A DNA stretch of 64,000 nt, from the NCBI GenBank assembly GCA_900317955.1, contig ONIP01000003.1:62001-126000 (forward strand), in the 5' to 3' direction. The position numbers were made by a program, and so were the translations under genes. Below the pieces are notes generated by a model, which saw only the letters and a program-made list of their open reading frames with translations, searched no databases and was not told the DNA's origin. Shown piece after piece: positions 36,983 through 55,380 of this stretch. This DNA comes from an uncultured Bacteroidales bacterium (GTDB lineage Bacteria > Bacteroidota > Bacteroidia > Bacteroidales > P3). Within the stretch, counting starts at the first letter, position 1. Each line of letters opens with the position of its first letter.

Positions 36983-37834
36983 TTAGGAGGGAAGTCGTAG
37001 TATGTTTTGATTATTATTGTTACACCATTGCGCTAATTTGGAATATAAGTATGTCCCACAAAACAATTGAACTGAATAGTTACTAAGGATTGTCTTTTTT
37101 AAATTTTTTTTCAACAAATTCCCACCTTTCCTTTTTTGTATTTCACAATACACACAATCCATCAAATCATGACCATTGGTAATACTGAGTATTTCAACTA
37201 TACTATGGCTGTTCTGAAAGGAATCTAATTCCTCTTGCTTTGCAGTATTATTGGGAGACACACCTTTTACCTTAACAAATAATTTATCACGTTGTCCTAA
37301 TAGACCTTCTTCATATAAAGAAATAGTGTTTAAATTTTTGAAAGCAAGGTTTCGATGGTTATTATAATTGTACCATTTCATATAAGAATAGTCTTTGAGA
37401 ATTTCGCTTAGTTGGTAGATATCTATACCATCGCAATAACTATTATACTCTTCGCCAACAATCTCACCGATACAATGATTCTGACAAATCATTGTTTCAA
37501 GATCATGAGCATCAGTAAAAAACATGGATGCACACGGAGGTGGGTTTAGGTTTGCATTGTTAAAATCAGCATCTCTCAAAGATATGATTCGTGTAGGAAA
37601 TTTTTTTTCAACTTCTGATAAAACAATTTGATGAAAACTAATATTTTTGGGAAGCAAATATACTGCGTCCTCCTTCAAAACATTGCTATAAACCAATTTA
37701 TCATCTGGACCTTCAACTAATACTAAAACCTTATTCCTTAAATCACGGCTTTGGAATAACAGATAAACTTCACTTAAAGCCGCACCTTGGCCATGTCTAA
37801 TAATTTCAGATCGGATTGTATTATTCATTTGCAT
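36983..37834 (-). CDS. DUF4435 TOPRIM-like protein (AriB-like)
   Basis: 283 residues. VLVLVEGPDDKLVY carries the acidic residue of a TOPRIM fold and ISLRDADFNN the D-x-D motif; LETMI follows. The family (DUF4435) includes AriB, the effector nuclease of the PARIS phage-defence system. Two ATGs compete (37834 and 37828); the second makes an ATGA overlap with the ATPase stop, as elsewhere in this operon. The gene is visibly A/T-rich compared with its neighbours at 32-35 kb, which suggests horizontal transfer. The family call is good; the system assignment is inference. Confidence 0.82.
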   Translation of the reverse strand: MQMNNTIRSEIIRHGQGAALSEVYLLFQSRDLRNKVLVLVEGPDDKLVYSNVLKEDAVYLLPKNISFHQIVLSEVEKKFPTRIISLRDADFNNANLNPPPCASMFFTDAHDLETMICQNHCIGEIVGEEYNSYCDGIDIYQLSEILKDYSYMKWYNYNNHRNLAFKNLNTISLYEEGLLGQRDKLFVKVKGVSPNNTAKQEELDSFQNSHSIVEILSITNGHDLMDCVYCEIQKRKGGNLLKKNLKKTILSNYSVQLFCGTYLYSKLAQWCNNNNQNILRLPS

Positions 37835-39129
37835 TGAGATGTCAAATCAAAACACTTCTCCCACCTTTCTCCAATAATTTGAGGTGAATGAGTAGCAATT
37901 ATAGCTTGCCCTTCTGTTAGTTTTAAAATGCGCTCTAAATCATCAATATACTGAAACTGCCAGGCAATATGAAGGGATATTTCTGGTTCATCTATCAACA
38001 GCAACTTATTCTTTCCAAATTCGAACACAAGATAATACAGCATAATTATAATGTTTTGCTCTCCACTTGACAAGTCAGATAATGATATCCATTTGAAATC
38101 ATCAGTCTGTACTCTAATACCCTTCTCCACAGAAAACGATACTTTTTTTGCAGTAAAGCCCTTCCTCTCAATAATATCTGTGAACAATTTTAATTTCCCA
38201 CAAATATCATCTAACTTTTCAAACTTTTCTGAAATGTCTTGAATATATGCAGAAAGTTCATTACCATGACTTTCACTATATTCAGGGATAATAACATTAT
38301 CTATTAAGTCATAAGAATATAGTTCACGAGTTTGTTCAATTAATTTTTTACGTTTCTCTTCATACTCTTGCTGAGTGAGACGTGAAAATGTATCATTTAT
38401 CAATTTGTTTATAAACTGATTATCTTTTTCTTGTGAAAAGGAAAGGAAATCATATTTTGCTCTCCGGATTCTCTGTTTTATCCGTTTTGCAACATCGTCA
38501 ATAGTATAATCTACCATTGAGGTTAAATATTCAGTCTCATCAAGATCGATTTGCTTACTTACTTTGGGTTTGAGAATTCGTTGAGCTTCTATAAACACCG
38601 TAGCTAAAGACTTTATTTGCAAAAGGAAAGCATTACCACTATTTTGCTCCTGAGCTATTATCTGAAGCATTCTTGGATTACGTCTTGCAAAATCATGAAA
38701 ATCTTTAGATGACACTACATCTGACCTCAGCCTCCTACCCTCATAATAACCTATTGACCTTATTGCCTTTCGAACAATTTTACCGTTAATGACAAACTTA
38801 CTTTCAGACTGGTCAACATTTATCCATTTAAATTCTATTTCTTTATTTCCTTCATTCGGTGTGTCTTGCGCATCTGATTCGTCAAGAATAGTCTTAGCCG
38901 TCACAAACAAACAACACCCATCAGCAAGCAATAACTTAACAGATAGAAATGGCAATGAATAAAAATAGAACAAATCAGACTTTGCGAGGGCATTAATGAT
39001 TGTTAAGATAGTCGTTTTCCCGTAGCCATTTGGACCTGTAAGAATAAGATAATTACTCTCTGAATCTAACTGAAAATAATAATTATATCGGCCAAAAAGT
39101 CCTTCTATTTCAAATCTAGACAATTTCAT
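37825..39129 (-). CDS. AAA/ABC-type ATPase (AriA-like)
   Basis: 434 residues. Walker A GPNGYGKTT near residue 33, an ABC signature LSSGEQN, Walker B LLLIDEPE followed by ISLHIAW, and a switch histidine in IIATHSPQ. The long insert between Walker A and the signature is a coiled coil (YEEKRKKLIEQTRELY). This is the RecF/OLD-like class used in defence systems; beside a DUF4435 gene it corresponds to AriA of PARIS. It starts in an ATGA overlap with the HNH gene. Confidence 0.85.
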   Translation of the reverse strand: MKLSRFEIEGLFGRYNYYFQLDSESNYLILTGPNGYGKTTILTIINALAKSDLFYFYSLPFLSVKLLLADGCCLFVTAKTILDESDAQDTPNEGNKEIEFKWINVDQSESKFVINGKIVRKAIRSIGYYEGRRLRSDVVSSKDFHDFARRNPRMLQIIAQEQNSGNAFLLQIKSLATVFIEAQRILKPKVSKQIDLDETEYLTSMVDYTIDDVAKRIKQRIRRAKYDFLSFSQEKDNQFINKLINDTFSRLTQQEYEEKRKKLIEQTRELYSYDLIDNVIIPEYSESHGNELSAYIQDISEKFEKLDDICGKLKLFTDIIERKGFTAKKVSFSVEKGIRVQTDDFKWISLSDLSSGEQNIIIMLYYLVFEFGKNKLLLIDEPEISLHIAWQFQYIDDLERILKLTEGQAIIATHSPQIIGERWEKCFDLTSQCK

Positions 39130-39491
39130 CGTGACATAATATTTGAGAGTTGTTTCTGCAAATTGCTATTCACAGTAAATTGCCCCTCAATAATGACATT
39201 CTCATTACCATTAGACTTTACACTTGCAGTATAAGATGGGTAGTCATCTCCTTTTGAACGATTATTTTGCCACTGCATTGGTCTTAGATTGATTAAATCA
39301 TCCGTACCTCCTTTTGTCTTAGGAAGCACATGGTCTATTTCCCAACCGAAGATACTATCTGTGTTACCATATTGATTCCTCAACATCCATGCGCCACACG
39401 CATCTTTACGTACGGAGTCTGAATCGTACCCTTTTTGTATAAGGCCCTTATTCCAAACTTGTTGTATGATACCCTCATCAAATATCGACAT
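39126..39491 (-). CDS. HNH endonuclease
   Basis: 121 residues from the ATG giving MSIFDEGIIQ; a TTG start 15 nt further up would lie on the -7 box. The HNH core is WEIDHVLPKTKGGTDDLINL then QWQNNRSKGD: the Asp-His pair, the central Asn and the final Asn-x3-Lys. It is the first gene of the operon and overlaps the ATPase by 4 nt, so it is probably part of the same system rather than a passenger. Confidence 0.85.
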   Translation of the reverse strand: MSIFDEGIIQQVWNKGLIQKGYDSDSVRKDACGAWMLRNQYGNTDSIFGWEIDHVLPKTKGGTDDLINLRPMQWQNNRSKGDDYPSYTASVKSNGNENVIIEGQFTVNSNLQKQLSNIMSR

Positions 39492-39503
39492 CTTTTTTTT
39501 TTG

Positions 39504-39511
39504 CAAAAATA
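39504..39511 (-). promoter_or_regulatory. -7 box of the HNH/ATPase/DUF4435 operon
   Basis: Reads TATTTTTG on the minus strand, 12 nt from the chosen start codon, leaving a very short leader. No TTTG at the usual -33 distance. Confidence 0.5.
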
Positions 39512-39563: not shown

Positions 39564-39571
39564 TATCTTTG
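39564..39571 (+). promoter_or_regulatory. -7 box of the structured RNA, copy 1
   Basis: TATCTTTG, 75 nt before the conserved GAAGCG of the RNA. In copy 2 the same distance is 76 nt. No -33 TTTG at the right spacing. Confidence 0.6.
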
Positions 39572-39576
39572 CAAAC

Positions 39577-39797
39577 GAAATAACAACTAAATAGACAACA
39601 TATCGGAAGAAAAAAATAGAAGATAAATACATAATATAGAAGCGTTTTCGCATTTCAAGCAGTCCGAAACCTAGGAAATTTCTGACCACAATGCTTACGA
39701 AAGCAGAAGCGCTCGCGGTAATACCGTGAGCTTTCTTGTTAGCATTGTGGGTTATTCCTAGGACCTCGGACTCAACAAAAAGTTCGCGGTTTTTTTT
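39577..39797 (+). ncRNA. structured RNA, copy 1 (about 220 nt)
   Basis: Expected to start about 6 nt after the -7 box and to end in the T-run at 39790-39797. A small hairpin (GCGTTTTCGC, 39641-39650) precedes a long stem: 39662-39667 with 39766-39771, 39670-39677 with 39755-39762, 39686-39695 with 39741-39750, 39699-39703 with 39731-39735 and 39712-39719 with 39723-39730. A one-sided bulge CAGAAGCG (39704-39711) lies inside. The plus strand is the transcribed one: it pairs G with U where the minus strand would have A against C. It shares an identical 17-nt core (39723-39739) with 55203-55219 on the opposite strand. It could also act as a 5' leader of the gene at 39851. Confidence 0.72.
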
Positions 39798-39850
39798 ATG
39801 TCTAAACAAGAAACATAGATTTAGAAGAAACTAACATTAAAATCCTGCCT

Positions 39851-40087
39851 ATGGAAAAGAAATACAAACTCAATTATGACCCGCCTAAGGTTACAATGGT
39901 GTCCTTTGTGGTGGAAAAGGGATTGCAGATGTCGGTTCGGACATCTGGCTTCGAGTTACCCCTCTTTGATAGTGACACATGGGATGGCCCTACATCAAAT
40001 ACAAATGCCAATCGCTTTGGCGATGCCGGATGGAACAACGGTTCCTCTCAGGGTACCGATGTCTTCGGCACAGGTTCATGGAATTAA
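39851..40087 (+). CDS. small protein of unknown function, leader-less
   Basis: 78 residues with no signal peptide: MEKKYKLNYDPPKVTMVSFV then an Asp/Gly/Asn/Thr-rich tail. Small proteins that open with a PPKVTMV-like strand are common just upstream of surface lipoprotein genes in Bacteroidales, but I know no function. It is 38 nt before the DUF285 lipoprotein gene, so they are probably cotranscribed. Confidence 0.6.
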   Translation: MEKKYKLNYDPPKVTMVSFVVEKGLQMSVRTSGFELPLFDSDTWDGPTSNTNANRFGDAGWNNGSSQGTDVFGTGSWN

Positions 40088-40125: not shown

Positions 40126-41859
40126 ATGAAGAAGCAACATATCATTTTCTCGTTCTTTGCAGCCTTGCCGGCCCTCTGTGCCGTCAGCTGCCAGAAAGAC
40201 CAGGATGTCGTCACTCTTAATGCGGTCATCCAGAAAGTCAGCAACGACTCAAAGGTCTATATCAACGACCACACACCCTATTGGCATAATGGTGACCAGA
40301 TAAGGATTAACGATGTCGATTACACATTACAGACGGCAATGGAGAACTCCGCACAGATACCCAATGTGGCAAACAGCACCTCGGGCTACCGTGCTATATT
40401 TCCTGCCGGCATCCTCACCAATAGCAATGCCAATATCAATAGCAGCAGCTCTGTGGCTGTTACCCTGCCTGCAACACAGGTGTTTGAAATGGTGGGCACT
40501 CATCAGCGGGTGGATGTCCCCATGGGTGCCTTTATAGATAGGGGCAACACCTTACAGTTTCACAACCTCTGCTCGGTGGTAAGGGTGTATGTCAGCAACG
40601 CCATCAATGCCCAACTACCCGTTACAGACATCACCATCACTGCTGAAAGCGCTATTCTCAGCGGTACAGGTACCGCCACTATCACTGGCGAAAGCACGGA
40701 CGCTATCACTATCCCCTCTTCAACAGGTTCTCATTCGGTTAGCCTTTGCAAGACAGACAACAACCCGATGAAAACAGTTGAGCCTTTGGCAACAGAATAT
40801 TTTGATGTGATAGTACCTGAATTCTCCACCCCAAGCGATGTAACCGTTACTGTCACGACTCCCACGGGTTATAAGTCTATTCCCGTCGAGGATGCCACTC
40901 TAGCTCATAACACTATTACTACCGTTACCGTCAATGTGGATGAATTGGCCCAAATCATCGCTGCTGAACTTGTTGATGGACCAACATTCAATGCAGCCAT
41001 TCCCCAGAATGCCACAGCGATACGTTTTGAATACAATAATGCCTATGTTACATCGGGTACAACCCTTTCCATAGCCATATCTCAATATCCAATTTATGGC
41101 AATATGAACGGCACCACCTGGGTGGTTTCTACTTCATCCAATAGAATTAACGCCAATACTAACAGTGGCAACATGTTTGACGGCCAAGCACTCACCAGTA
41201 TTGATTTTGGGAACAACTTCAACACCTCTAATGTCACTAATATGTCTGGGATGTTCTGGGAGTGCAGAGATCTGACCAGCCTCAACCTCTCCAACTTCAA
41301 CACTTCCAATGTCACGGATATGTCAAATATGTTCGTTGGTTGCAGCAGCCTGACCAGCCTCAATATCTCCAATTTCAACACTTTCAATGTCACGGATATG
41401 AGATCAATGTTCTTTAATTGTAGAAGCCTAACCAGCCTCAATCTCTCTAACCTCAACACTTCCAATGTTACGAATATGAATGGGATGTTCGTTGGTTGCA
41501 GCAGCCTAACCAGCCTCAACCTCTCCAACTTTAACACATCCAGTGTCACGAATATGTCAAATATGTTCATTGGTTGCAGTGGTCTAACAAGCCTCAACCT
41601 CTCCAACTTCAACACATCCAATGTGAATGATATGCGGTACATGTTCTGTAATTGTAGCAGACTAACAAGCCTCAATCTTAATGACTTTGACATGAATGCT
41701 CTTTCTAATCATAATGGCCAAACCGGTAAATACCAAATGTGTTCAGGTCTCGCTTCTATCTCTGGTGCCTGCGCTATCACTTGTCCTACAGTTATACAGA
41801 CCGAATTGCAAAGTGGCACAGACCTCAATAATAGTATTGTCACATGGTACACACACTAA
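40126..41859 (+). CDS. BspA-type (DUF285) surface lipoprotein
   Basis: Starts at the ATG for MKKQHIIFSFF; the longer open frame upstream overlaps the small protein and is not used. The lipobox is AVSC at about residue 20. A fimbrillin-like N-terminal part (about 25-300) contains beta-rich segments (YINDHTPYWHNGDQIRI). Residues about 364-519 are six repeats of 26 residues (NFNTSNVTDMSNMF, then CSSLTSLNLS) of the DUF285 leucine-rich type found in BspA-like adhesins. Ends before a strong terminator. Likely surface-exposed adhesion protein. Confidence 0.88.
   Translation: MKKQHIIFSFFAALPALCAVSCQKDQDVVTLNAVIQKVSNDSKVYINDHTPYWHNGDQIRINDVDYTLQTAMENSAQIPNVANSTSGYRAIFPAGILTNSNANINSSSSVAVTLPATQVFEMVGTHQRVDVPMGAFIDRGNTLQFHNLCSVVRVYVSNAINAQLPVTDITITAESAILSGTGTATITGESTDAITIPSSTGSHSVSLCKTDNNPMKTVEPLATEYFDVIVPEFSTPSDVTVTVTTPTGYKSIPVEDATLAHNTITTVTVNVDELAQIIAAELVDGPTFNAAIPQNATAIRFEYNNAYVTSGTTLSIAISQYPIYGNMNGTTWVVSTSSNRINANTNSGNMFDGQALTSIDFGNNFNTSNVTNMSGMFWECRDLTSLNLSNFNTSNVTDMSNMFVGCSSLTSLNISNFNTFNVTDMRSMFFNCRSLTSLNLSNLNTSNVTNMNGMFVGCSSLTSLNLSNFNTSSVTNMSNMFIGCSGLTSLNLSNFNTSNVNDMRYMFCNCSRLTSLNLNDFDMNALSNHNGQTGKYQMCSGLASISGACAITCPTVIQTELQSGTDLNNSIVTWYTH
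41215..41682 (+). repeat. six tandem 78-nt repeats in the DUF285 gene
   Basis: Units begin with AACTTCAACAC or close variants at 41215, 41293, 41371, 41449, 41527 and 41605. Each encodes one 26-residue leucine-rich repeat. Unit number could change by recombination without loss of frame. Confidence 0.85.
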
Positions 41860-52816: not shown

Positions 52817-53638
52817 TTAATTGTTACAATACTCTGCTCCCAACTTTTCTTTAAGTAATTGCTCTTGTGCTATCACTTGATCATCGGGTGTGTTCTTTGA
52901 CATTATCATCAATAATGAGAATGCAAAGTTTCTGGAATAGTCGGGGTCGCAACCGACCAACTCTTTCAGAGTCTTGTTGTTGCCATGTCCATTGGTCTTC
53001 ACATACACTTCCCATCGCTGCCAGATGCCTTCCTTGCCATAGGCCGATCCAATATAGAGCTTGTCAGTTCTCGTGTCTCGAATTACATAGACACCGTATA
53101 CATTTGAAAGCATGTGATGCCATTCTTCGTTGTCGGTATTTACCAATTCTGTCAACTCATCGAATGTGAGTATAAAGTCAAGGTATCCAGGGAACGGCTT
53201 GGAATCGAAACCTGAAGATATTTCGATGACCTCCATCTCGTTGCAGAACTTCTGATGCCATGAGATTGGGTTTGACCAATTGATAATTACACGTTCTTTC
53301 AATCTTTCGAAACCACCGACTTCCTCTAATGTATAGAAATATTTGTCGTTGGGATTTTCAATCGTTTGACGGACTTCCTCTATGGGTTGAACCCGCAAAA
53401 CACGATATACGCCAACAAAACGGGCTCTTCTACCTTCCTCGCCGATGAAACTGACGATGTAGTCTAATTCATGAAAAACAGGTTTGGATTGTATCGCCTG
53501 ATAATCCTCAAATTTATCCCGGTGGAATCGGTAAAGGTCATAAACATTCTGACGATGGTCTTTGTGTCTCACCAATTTGGCTTTTGCGTCCTTAGGGAAT
53601 CCGCATCTTACTAATAATTCTTGAATTGTGATAAGCAT
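52817..53638 (-). CDS. GIY-YIG nuclease family protein
   Basis: 273 residues. The C-terminal third holds the GIY-YIG core: GVYVIRDTRTDKLYIGSAYG then GIWQRWEVYVKTN, with the Tyr pair and the catalytic Arg position. The N-terminal ~150 residues are a separate alpha/beta domain. Last gene of a minus-strand operon (82-residue protein, macro-like/YopX protein, then this). Confidence 0.8.
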   Translation of the reverse strand: MLITIQELLVRCGFPKDAKAKLVRHKDHRQNVYDLYRFHRDKFEDYQAIQSKPVFHELDYIVSFIGEEGRRARFVGVYRVLRVQPIEEVRQTIENPNDKYFYTLEEVGGFERLKERVIINWSNPISWHQKFCNEMEVIEISSGFDSKPFPGYLDFILTFDELTELVNTDNEEWHHMLSNVYGVYVIRDTRTDKLYIGSAYGKEGIWQRWEVYVKTNGHGNNKTLKELVGCDPDYSRNFAFSLLMIMSKNTPDDQVIAQEQLLKEKLGAEYCNN

Positions 53639-53661
53639 GATTATAATGTTTTATAGGTTTA

Positions 53662-54804
53662 TTAATGTCTCCAATTGTACTCAACACCTAACTCGTTTAG
53701 GACAATGTAGGGAATGTTATCCGTAAAAAAATTGGGGGTTAATCTGGCCTTTACCAGTTCTTTTCCCAATGTGCTTGTAGGTGGGCAGGCGAAGGTTCCA
53801 TAAACACTGCTAAAGAATCGTCCGTTACGGTTCCTTACTAGCTGGTCGTCATTAAAATCAGCATCCAACCCATAGAACACCGTTCCAAGTCGGTCAAACT
53901 TGGAACATTCGGACATGTGGATGCAGTGATTGTCGAGCAACAAGGCGTATTCTTCATGTATTACTCCGACTGGTAAAACATAGGATGCTCCATGAAAATA
54001 GGCCCGAACTATGTCTCCCGTATAAATGTGGTCTCCTCGTTTGTCTTTAAACGGGGTACGCACTCCTGCGAAATGCACCCTGCGCACATAGCCTTTGTTT
54101 GGACACTCATCATGAAATTCATCATAGAGGATATAATCTGCATGCTGGTCTTTGTATTTCTCGTCCTTCGAACAAACGTAAAACTCCCATGGACTGTGGA
54201 AAAAGAAGCCAAAACCAAAACTAGTGTAGCCGAATTTTCCATCACCATCAACATAACGTATTTTTATATGTGGATACTTAGTATTTAGTGCTGCTCCTAT
54301 TTCGTATCTATACATACGGCTTAAGCGCACAAGTTCTTCTTCGTCAATTCCATAATTCAACGTAGGAGTTTCTTCTTCTTGTCTGCCCAATCTCATATCT
54401 ATATCGAAAAAAATGAGCCACCATTCAAGAGCAAATACTGCATTATTCACATCACGCAATTCATAGAATAGGGGTGCGACCTGTTGGTCTTTAAAACCAG
54501 CTACACCACATCCCAACCGCGTGATAAGGAATCTGTTCATTGGATGGTCTTTTACATATTCTATGAACTCTTGGACGTAAGGAACCATCTCTTCAACTGT
54601 TTCAAACATGGTTGGAATAGCATAGCATTGTCCTTGTGGGCCTACACCCTGTCCATAAGTTGCACCAAAATGGCGACAGGCATATCCTGCAGCACCACCA
54701 CGATGTTTGCCTTCCAAATTGCTGCCAAAGACAAATACCTCACAACGAGTCAATTCTCTAATGGGTTCTGCTGACAACTTTCTACCTCTATAGTTTGACA
54801 CCAT
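53662..54804 (-). CDS. macro-like phage-type domain fused to a YopX-like domain
   Basis: 380 residues. Residues about 20-135 (CEVFVFGSNLEGKHRGGAAG, GQGVGPQGQCYAIPT, RLGCGVAGFKD) match the A1S_2505-type phage proteins, related to macrodomains. Residues about 245-345 (FAGVRTPFKDKRGDHIYTGD, GVIHEEYALLLDN) have the layout of YopX phage proteins. A linker between them (about 150-240) is unrecognised. Both halves are phage- or mobile-element-type, so the gene is probably accessory. Ligand and role unknown. Confidence 0.72.
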   Translation of the reverse strand: MVSNYRGRKLSAEPIRELTRCEVFVFGSNLEGKHRGGAAGYACRHFGATYGQGVGPQGQCYAIPTMFETVEEMVPYVQEFIEYVKDHPMNRFLITRLGCGVAGFKDQQVAPLFYELRDVNNAVFALEWWLIFFDIDMRLGRQEEETPTLNYGIDEEELVRLSRMYRYEIGAALNTKYPHIKIRYVDGDGKFGYTSFGFGFFFHSPWEFYVCSKDEKYKDQHADYILYDEFHDECPNKGYVRRVHFAGVRTPFKDKRGDHIYTGDIVRAYFHGASYVLPVGVIHEEYALLLDNHCIHMSECSKFDRLGTVFYGLDADFNDDQLVRNRNGRFFSSVYGTFACPPTSTLGKELVKARLTPNFFTDNIPYIVLNELGVEYNWRH

Positions 54805-54813
54805 AATTGAATG

Positions 54814-55062
54814 CTATTTAAAGTTATCATACCTTTCTTTAGAGACCGGAAATCTCATCATCACCGCTTCCCACCAGCATCCTATACCGACATCCTCTTT
54901 CCAGTCGTATGGCTCTTCATCCCCTCTGCCTATAGTTTTTCGCCAAACATGCCATCCGTATGGCTTCGTTGGAACAGAACGGTAGATGTAGTTGCCACAT
55001 TCTGGCACCAAATACATCTCTTCTGTAAAGAGCTTCTCAAAAAATAATTCAGCTTCCATCAT
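54814..55062 (-). CDS. small protein of unknown function
   Basis: 82 residues from MMEAELFFEKLF; acidic/aromatic (EECGNYIYRSVPTKPYGWHV-like region, then GIGCWWEAVMMRFPVSKERY). 9 nt before the macro-like gene, so first in the operon. A longer in-frame start at 55092 would overlap the -7 box and is less likely. Family not recognised. Confidence 0.6.
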   Translation of the reverse strand: MMEAELFFEKLFTEEMYLVPECGNYIYRSVPTKPYGWHVWRKTIGRGDEEPYDWKEDVGIGCWWEAVMMRFPVSKERYDNFK

Positions 55063-55097: not shown

Positions 55098-55142
55098 CAT
55101 CATAGGTATGCCAAAATGTGACATAGGGTTTATTTTTTGTAC

Positions 55143-55367
55143 AAAAAAAGCCGTGAACTTTTTTTGTTCATGGCTGAGGTTCTCGACTACCTATCATTAC
55201 GAACAAGAAAGCTCACGGTGCTCGTGAGCGTTTCTCCTTTCTTGTGTAATGATAGTTGAAATTGTCGAGATTTCAGCCATACAAAAGAAAAGCGAATACG
55301 CTTCAATATGTCTTTATTTTTCTATTATTCTCTTTAACTTATGCCATATCTTACTATTTTTGTTTGA
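55143..55367 (-). ncRNA. structured RNA, copy 2 (about 225 nt)
   Basis: Read on the minus strand. The -7 box TATATTTG (55380-55373) is 76 nt before the conserved GAAGCG (55304-55299). The stem is 55273-55280 with 55170-55177, 55264-55270 with 55181-55187, 55246-55255 with 55191-55200, 55237-55241 with 55207-55211 and 55223-55228 with 55212-55217; bulge GAGAAACG (55236-55229). At the end a hairpin (GCCATGAAC with GTTCACGGC, one A-C mismatch) and TTTTTTT make a terminator. The core is identical to copy 1 over 17 nt; the helices keep their pairing with different bases. Confidence 0.72.
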
Positions 55368-55372
55368 CAGTG

Positions 55373-55380
55373 CAAATATA
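55373..55380 (-). promoter_or_regulatory. -7 box of structured RNA copy 2
   Basis: Reads TATATTTG on the minus strand. About 20 nt further up is TTCG, one mismatch from TTTG. Confidence 0.55.

Follow-up and report, generated by a model that had tools for sequence, protein, structure and literature searches.

A widespread candidate leader RNA of the Bacteroidia with attenuator-like alternative pairings

Two structured RNAs in a 64,000-nucleotide stretch of DNA from an uncultured Bacteroidales bacterium (contig ONIP01000003.1, positions 62,001 to 126,000; hereafter the window) are confirmed here as members of a family that extends well beyond these two copies. By the content of Rfam 15 this family is new, while its kind is known, namely a cis-acting leader RNA with attenuator-like alternative pairings. 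Its unusual traits are its class-wide spread, its multiple copies per genome, its mixed regulon and its exchange between genes. Judged by sequence comparison, the module probably, though by no means certainly, acts in cis as a leader that switches transcription of the gene or genes behind it.

Two homologous RNA modules in the window

A first-pass annotation of the window had described a pair of homologous RNAs, here termed c1 and c2, and had taken paired changes in their helices as evidence for a selected RNA structure. The pair is real: all coordinates and helices given for it were recovered, the core common to both copies is as claimed, and so are the three outer helices that covary, and the −7 box lies 75 nt from GAAGCG in c1 (39564 to 39639) and 76 nt in c2 (55380 to 55304). 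Both copies fold far below their dinucleotide shuffles (z −5.29 for c1 and −6.52 for c2, 0/200 each). A scan of the window with the covariance model R1, which is based on a first alignment (A2) of 30 homologues from the genus, returned only c1 and c2 above noise, both of them members of the R1 training set. The parts of the two copies and the genes behind them are as follows.

39564–39571, plus: c1 −7 box of the Bacteroidota type, TATCTTTG, putative promoter for the RNA (sequence)
39628–39798, plus: c1 structured RNA module, full match to covariance model R1 (179 bits, E 5.8e-33)
39639–39651, plus: c1 5′ hairpin H0, GAAGCGTTTTCGC, whose GCGTTTT is able to pair with bulge J
39661–39667, plus: c1 helix P1, 5′ strand AGTCCGA, partner 39766–39772
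39670–39677, plus: c1 helix P2, 5′ strand CCTAGGAA, partner 39755–39762
39686–39695, plus: c1 helix P3, 5′ strand CCACAATGCT, partner 39741–39750
39705–39712, plus: c1 bulge J at the base of the apical hairpin, AGAAGCGC, alternative partner of H0
39711–39718, plus: c1 apical helix P4, 5′ strand A, GCTCGCGG, pairs with A-prime
39724–39731, plus: c1 apical helix P4, 3′ strand A-prime, CCGTGAGC, partner either A or T
39741–39750, plus: c1 helix P3, 3′ strand (covariation)
39755–39762, plus: c1 helix P2, 3′ strand (covariation)
39766–39772, plus: c1 helix P1, 3′ strand (covariation)
39782–39789, plus: c1 proposed terminator strand T, GTTCGCGG, rival of A for A-prime
39790–39797, plus: c1 U-run, proposed intrinsic terminator (sequence)
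39851–40087, plus: first ORF downstream of c1, 78 aa, MEKKYKLNYDPPKV... (sequence), without Pfam or NCBIfam match
40126–41859, plus: second gene downstream of c1, BspA-like LRR/DUF285 lipoprotein (PF03382, E 2.8e-38)
55373–55380, minus: c2 −7 box of the Bacteroidota type, TATATTTG (sequence)
55142–55315, minus: c2 structured RNA module, full match to R1 (161 bits, E 1.8e-29)
55273–55280, minus: c2 helix P1, 5′ strand ATGGCTGA, partner 55170–55177
55170–55177, minus: c2 helix P1, 3′ strand TCAGCCAT (sequence and covariation)
55264–55270, minus: c2 helix P2, 5′ strand TCTCGAC, partner 55181–55187
55181–55187, minus: c2 helix P2, 3′ strand GTCGAGA (sequence and covariation)
55246–55255, minus: c2 helix P3, 5′ strand CTATCATTAC, partner 55191–55200
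55191–55200, minus: c2 helix P3, 3′ strand GTAATGATAG (sequence and covariation)
55211–55229, minus: c2 apical hairpin P4, with A GCTCACG and A-prime CGTGAGC (covariation)
55151–55158, minus: c2 proposed terminator strand T, GTTCACGG (covariation)
55143–55149, minus: c2 U-run (sequence)
54814–55062, minus: first ORF downstream of c2, 82 aa, without Pfam, PADLOC or NCBIfam match
53662–54804, minus: second ORF downstream of c2, 380 aa, NCBIfam A1S_2505 N-terminal domain (E 7.7e-37), without Pfam or PADLOC match
52817–53638, minus: third ORF downstream of c2, candidate defence protein UzuA (PADLOC, E 4.4e-88)

The A1S_2505 family in the operon behind c2 (52817–55062, minus) is named after phage proteins. 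On the other side of c1 lies a PARIS-like set (36983–39506, minus) composed of an AriA-like ATPase (PADLOC E 2.4e-29) together with weak matches to AriB (3.6e-8) and HNH. The earlier association of c1 with this PARIS-like operon is unsupported, as the AriA/AriB-like genes are located upstream of c1 on the opposite strand, i.e. they are divergent.

A conserved hairpin of four covarying helices

The search for a third homologue with compensatory changes yielded well over 150 loci. The module measures about 170 nt, and its helices P1 to P4 were evaluated in alignment A3, which comprises 90 sequences. In this alignment 97.4% of the helix cells are paired, compared to 68.1% in shuffles and 32–43% with slid partners, and double-sided changes number 770 against 206 in shuffles, counts that lean towards P1–P4 since the sequences were fitted to a model holding these helices; given the sizes of the differences, this lean is unimportant for P1–P3. 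The covariation score reaches 0.778 as opposed to 0.200 after shuffling, and 25 of the 29 helix pairs show changes on both sides. These include every pair of P1 (7/7, with 97.6% of cells paired), P2 (7/7) and P3 (8/8). Hence, the claim that the RNA structure is under selection has strong support. The apical helix P4, formed by A and A-prime, is paired in 100% of cells, and its 3′ strand GCTTTCTTGT is nearly invariant within the genus. At most core columns of the terminal U-run, U is found in at least 83 of the 90 sequences.

Mutually exclusive pairings of A-prime with T and of H0 with J

Two further pairings, A-prime with T and the H0 loop with bulge J, are both absent from the model that was used for alignment. 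The mean duplex energy of A-prime:T is −13.67 kcal/mol for a sequence's own partner versus −10.26 ± 0.32 kcal/mol for permuted partners (0/1000), a difference that recurs within each of two clades (0/2000 permutations each), and 92–98% of the cells in its runs are paired. Since T might resemble A merely through their common partner A-prime, we examined the neighbouring apical loop. Columns 125–252, by which A-prime:T extends into this loop, are paired in 80 of 87 sequences, where 44 would be expected; the partner of column 125 within the loop, column 117, pairs with it in 72 of 86. The extension comprises 2.33 bases versus 1.05 for permuted partners (0/2000), and 2.33 versus 1.88 within the window's clade (0/2000). 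In the apical-loop extension, resemblance to A would thus account less for the A-prime:T pairing. Individual columns and loci illustrate the exchange of paired bases: columns 143–239 hold A-U 31 times, G-U 27 times and G-C 30 times, with A-C occurring only once; the longest swaps are seen in the leaders of PLD-helicase genes, for example UUAUCCGUG with CACGGAUAA, and a swap outside the window's family reads CGUGGG/CCCACG.

For H0:J the energy is −7.80 kcal/mol with the own partner versus −6.79 ± 0.13 kcal/mol with permuted ones (0/1000), and 91.9% of cells are paired (e.g. GAGUUU:AAACUC in L096). Covariation of this pairing is evident outside the window's clade (0/2000 permutations) and not significant within it (223/2000). 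A pairing of the 5′ hairpin with the 3′ tail, which RNAalifold returned on the first MAFFT alignment, was rejected, as A-prime:T and H0:J explain more.

A-prime:T and A:A-prime are mutually exclusive, and H0:J shares bases with the H0 stem as well as with A. The covariation points to selection on mutually exclusive terminator- and antiterminator-like helices, and regulated termination is predicted from it.

The module is placed between a promoter box and a co-directional gene

Of 165 copies, 134 have a TAnnTTTG box 5–140 nt upstream (13.7 in shuffles, 11 in a control region), and such a box separates the U-run from the start codon at 8 of 142 loci, where 6.9 would arise by chance. Since the boxes are distributed in this way, a recognisable candidate gene promoter precedes the RNA at nearly all loci. 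A sigma-70 style promoter scan is uninformative for Bacteroidota. The first downstream ORF is co-directional in 83/88 and 63/67 loci, together 146/155, and starts at a median of 63 nt past the U-run, while the strand of the nearest upstream ORF is near random (42 plus and 41 minus in one set, 46 and 31 in the other). By these arrangements the RNA is predicted to be a cis leader between promoter and co-directional gene rather than a free-standing RNA.

Four of the eight loci with a box after the U-run belong to the c2 subgroup, i.e. c2 and three close relatives, which share an extra TAnnTTTG box (gtatctttgc; 55100–55060, minus, in c2) about 35 nt before the start codon. Because of this extra −7 box, the gene in the c2 subgroup may also be transcribed apart from the RNA. 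At another locus (L093, 1391–1459, minus), the Rfam DUF805 RNA (RF03081) lies directly between a module copy and the gene, so that two leader RNAs are stacked.

Distribution and family identity

Homologues were detected by blastn in 72 of 99 genomes of the genus. R1 matches were found in 125 of 149 genomes and all 12 genera of the family, with up to 18 per genome, in 58 of 198 genomes of the order and in 47 of 295 genomes of the class. In the phylum sample 13 of 198 genomes matched, these being the window's own genome and twelve others, all from the same class. An exact pattern of the apical core, run over named genomes, gave 80 loci among the matches listed, nearly all with the complete structure; carriers include Millionella massiliensis, Sunxiuqinia indica, Aequorivita echinoideorum, Rikenella, Symbiothrix and MAGs of Dysgonamonadaceae. 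The Bacteroidia that carry the module come from gut, rumen, termite gut and environmental habitats. The window's own genome (G000) has additional strong copies at C39:37646, C37:6523 and C40:4342, the last of which (L040) stands ahead of a tyrosine recombinase-like gene, as well as weaker candidates. One locus (L088) has a copy at 246–411 and, by eye, an apparent tandem second copy at about 520–700, both in front of one gene; the model search listed the first alone. Contigs of MAGs often stop within about 250 nt of a copy (L125, L137, L149, L157, L175, L193), which suggests that the leader and the region following it are repeated among paralogues.

It had been left open whether the RNA belongs to a listed family such as Bacteroidales-1 or a 6S-like RNA. 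Against Rfam 15 the element had no match at the gathering threshold in the window and 32 loci, and relaxing E for c1 and another seven loci brought none either; Bacteroidales-1, 6S, 6S-Flavo and Flavo-1, as listed there, are thereby set aside. The assignment to 6S RNA is also at odds with the up to 18 copies per genome and the cis position. As regards a retron ncRNA, the 25 commonest Pfam families of the first downstream genes include no reverse transcriptase, nor do the scanned neighbours in the window. Viral contigs, phage and plasmid records contained no match (both viral scans using exact patterns, blastn the c1 sequence only), and a phage-borne origin is unsupported by these collections. 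A published description of the module was not found in the literature searched, which covered openly readable article text.

The downstream genes are mixed

According to a Pfam and PADLOC tally, the first downstream genes share no common pathway. Their families include TonB plug, carboxypeptidase-regulatory, PLD-helicase, BspA LRR, Fib_succ_major, MmeI-type methylase, N6 methylase, T9SS tail and TPR proteins. Outside the window's group, a crude hydrophobicity rule assigns an export-like signal to 74 of the 99 first genes, compared to 8 of 43 divergent upstream genes; within the group it does so for 11 of 35 first genes. The downstream genes are hence mixed, with mostly exported proteins (by prediction) outside the window's group and often putative restriction or defence functions within it. 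The family as a whole leads many gene types and is neither defence- nor retron-specific. The regulon points to no single ligand or regulator.

Among 30 loci with homologues of one restriction-type PLD helicase, 22 have the RNA immediately ahead of the gene. One homologue (L272, G016:C3), 77% identical, has no RNA, and its genome is without any R1 match, which makes it a natural case for comparing gain and loss of the module. At L253–L275 a conserved stretch (GAAAGGCGAAGCGCC..CGCCAAGCCTT) between the RNA and the PLD-helicase gene, right ahead of the start codon, may fold into a further small hairpin.

Exchange of the module between genes

Several pairs of copies (L001/L007, L030/L034 and L019/L020) are 90–98% identical and have flanks at background level on one or both sides, the block of identity beginning some 10 nt ahead of H0 and ending at the U-run. 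Among seven aligned pairs, none of the module ends is fixed. In the 22 PLD-helicase leaders, the identity of the RNA is uncorrelated with that of the gene (r 0.12). As read from these comparisons, the module of about 170 nt moves between genes as a unit, a pattern compatible with the leader being subject to gene conversion or recombination.

A model for transcriptional switching and its alternatives

In the model that we favour, each copy would be transcribed from its own promoter, as the boxes indicate, and the nascent RNA would form the small 5′ hairpin H0 and the long hairpin P1-P2-P3 topped by A:A-prime. A-prime could alternatively pair with T directly ahead of the U-run, a pairing indicated by covariation. 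Since A-prime:T followed by U residues has the geometry of an intrinsic terminator, it would act as the terminator and A:A-prime as the antiterminator. The likewise covarying pairing of the H0 loop with bulge J would weaken A:A-prime and thus serve as an anti-antiterminator, and P1–P3 would either lock the antiterminated form or hold a sensor in the conserved internal loops. In nested prefix folding, a calculation that excludes pseudoknots and kinetics, A:A-prime stays paired at every length; hence, transcription would read through by default, and termination would be what is regulated. A-prime:T spans about 50–60 nt containing the 3′ strands of P1–P3, so that once these helices have formed the geometry would be that of a pseudoknot and not of a classical terminator hairpin. 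With P1–P3 in place, both A-prime:T and H0:J would be pseudoknots, for which the linker lengths appear sufficient by a rough estimate. Given the variety of genes behind the RNA, its signal is probably a global one and not a metabolite of some pathway; it might be a nucleotide second messenger, the state of transcription or an RNA-binding protein.

A more far-reaching version, which we put forward tentatively and hold to be possible rather than probable, is that the family represents a double-pseudoknot RNA switch of a new class, which occurs in much of the Bacteroidia, senses a global signal such as a nucleotide second messenger, sets the expression of surface proteins and restriction or defence functions together, and is passed on as a module by recombination. 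A multi-copy leader in front of surface receptors, adhesins, lipoproteins, TonB transporters and restriction systems would be among the class's more widespread regulatory RNAs, and it is absent from Rfam 15. If the switch is real, its signal would reveal how surface and defence traits relevant to phage sensitivity and host contact are controlled.

The leader position in front of many unrelated operons and the conserved apical 3′ strand would also be expected of a processive-antitermination element comparable to put, EAR or LoaP-dependent RNAs, by which RNA polymerase is modified to pass terminators in long operons. We regard this as unlikely, since conserved mutually exclusive pairings favour a switch and some targets are apparently single genes. 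Moreover, the genomes G181, G082 and G039 have 11–12 copies each, yet a single NusG homologue, and the need for a dedicated NusG paralogue is thus unsupported. The own promoter, the terminal U-run and the compact conserved fold are also compatible with an autonomous RNA, either a trans-acting small RNA or a protein-binding one, that ends at the U-run and is merely located beside genes, and in c2 and its three relatives the gene even has a −7 box of its own. The co-directional gene at 146 of 155 loci with an upstream strand near random, the scarcity of boxes between RNA and gene (8/142) and a gene association that persists over large distances (the PLD helicase, 22/30) make such an autonomous RNA rather improbable.

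Nearly identical modules set in unrelated sequence on one side or on both, the uncorrelated RNA and gene identities at the PLD-helicase loci and the copies near MAG contig ends could further be read as a mobile DNA element or a recombination site, MITE-like or a point of cassette exchange, which is transcribed by chance. Against this stand the RNA-type compensatory changes, the constant place and direction of the module between promoter and gene and the lack of any copy in the viral contigs, phages and plasmids searched. In addition, there are no consistent terminal repeats, and a closing helix from flank to flank has only weak end complementarity (11/1000). A chance-transcribed mobile element is therefore very improbable, and the cis-acting switch remains our preferred reading.

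Comparison with known regulatory RNAs

Like transcription-attenuating riboswitches and attenuators, the module is located in a 5′ leader with its own putative promoter and a U-run, and possesses covarying, mutually exclusive strands A, A-prime and T together with conserved internal loops. It differs from them in that its downstream genes share no pathway, that it is shuffled between genes and that its two competing helices, the terminator and the antiterminator, would be pseudoknots built around a long stem. The conserved internal loops are compatible with a ligand, as in riboswitches; the genes behind them give no pathway. Riboswitches for c-di-GMP (GEMM) occur in multiple copies and control mixed regulons. 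The module resembles them in both respects but has no Rfam match to them. With the epsC/EAR, put and LoaP-type antitermination RNAs it shares the position as a leader on operons for surface functions; unlike these, it has no Rfam match, has alternative pairings beside a terminator-like U-run and needs no dedicated NusG paralogue.

The large, unnamed list of candidate structured RNAs from human microbiomes, including Bacteroidetes, compiled by Fremin and Bhatt 2021 (PMC8040213) could contain fragments of the module, though the text of that publication gives no matching description. The DUF805 and DUF805b RNAs (RF03081, RF02914) are, as the module probably is, cis-regulatory RNAs and are found in its loci, though seldom next to it (at the gathering score, 1 of 32 loci); in contrast to the module of about 170 nt, their models cover about 35–70 nt, and they do not match it.
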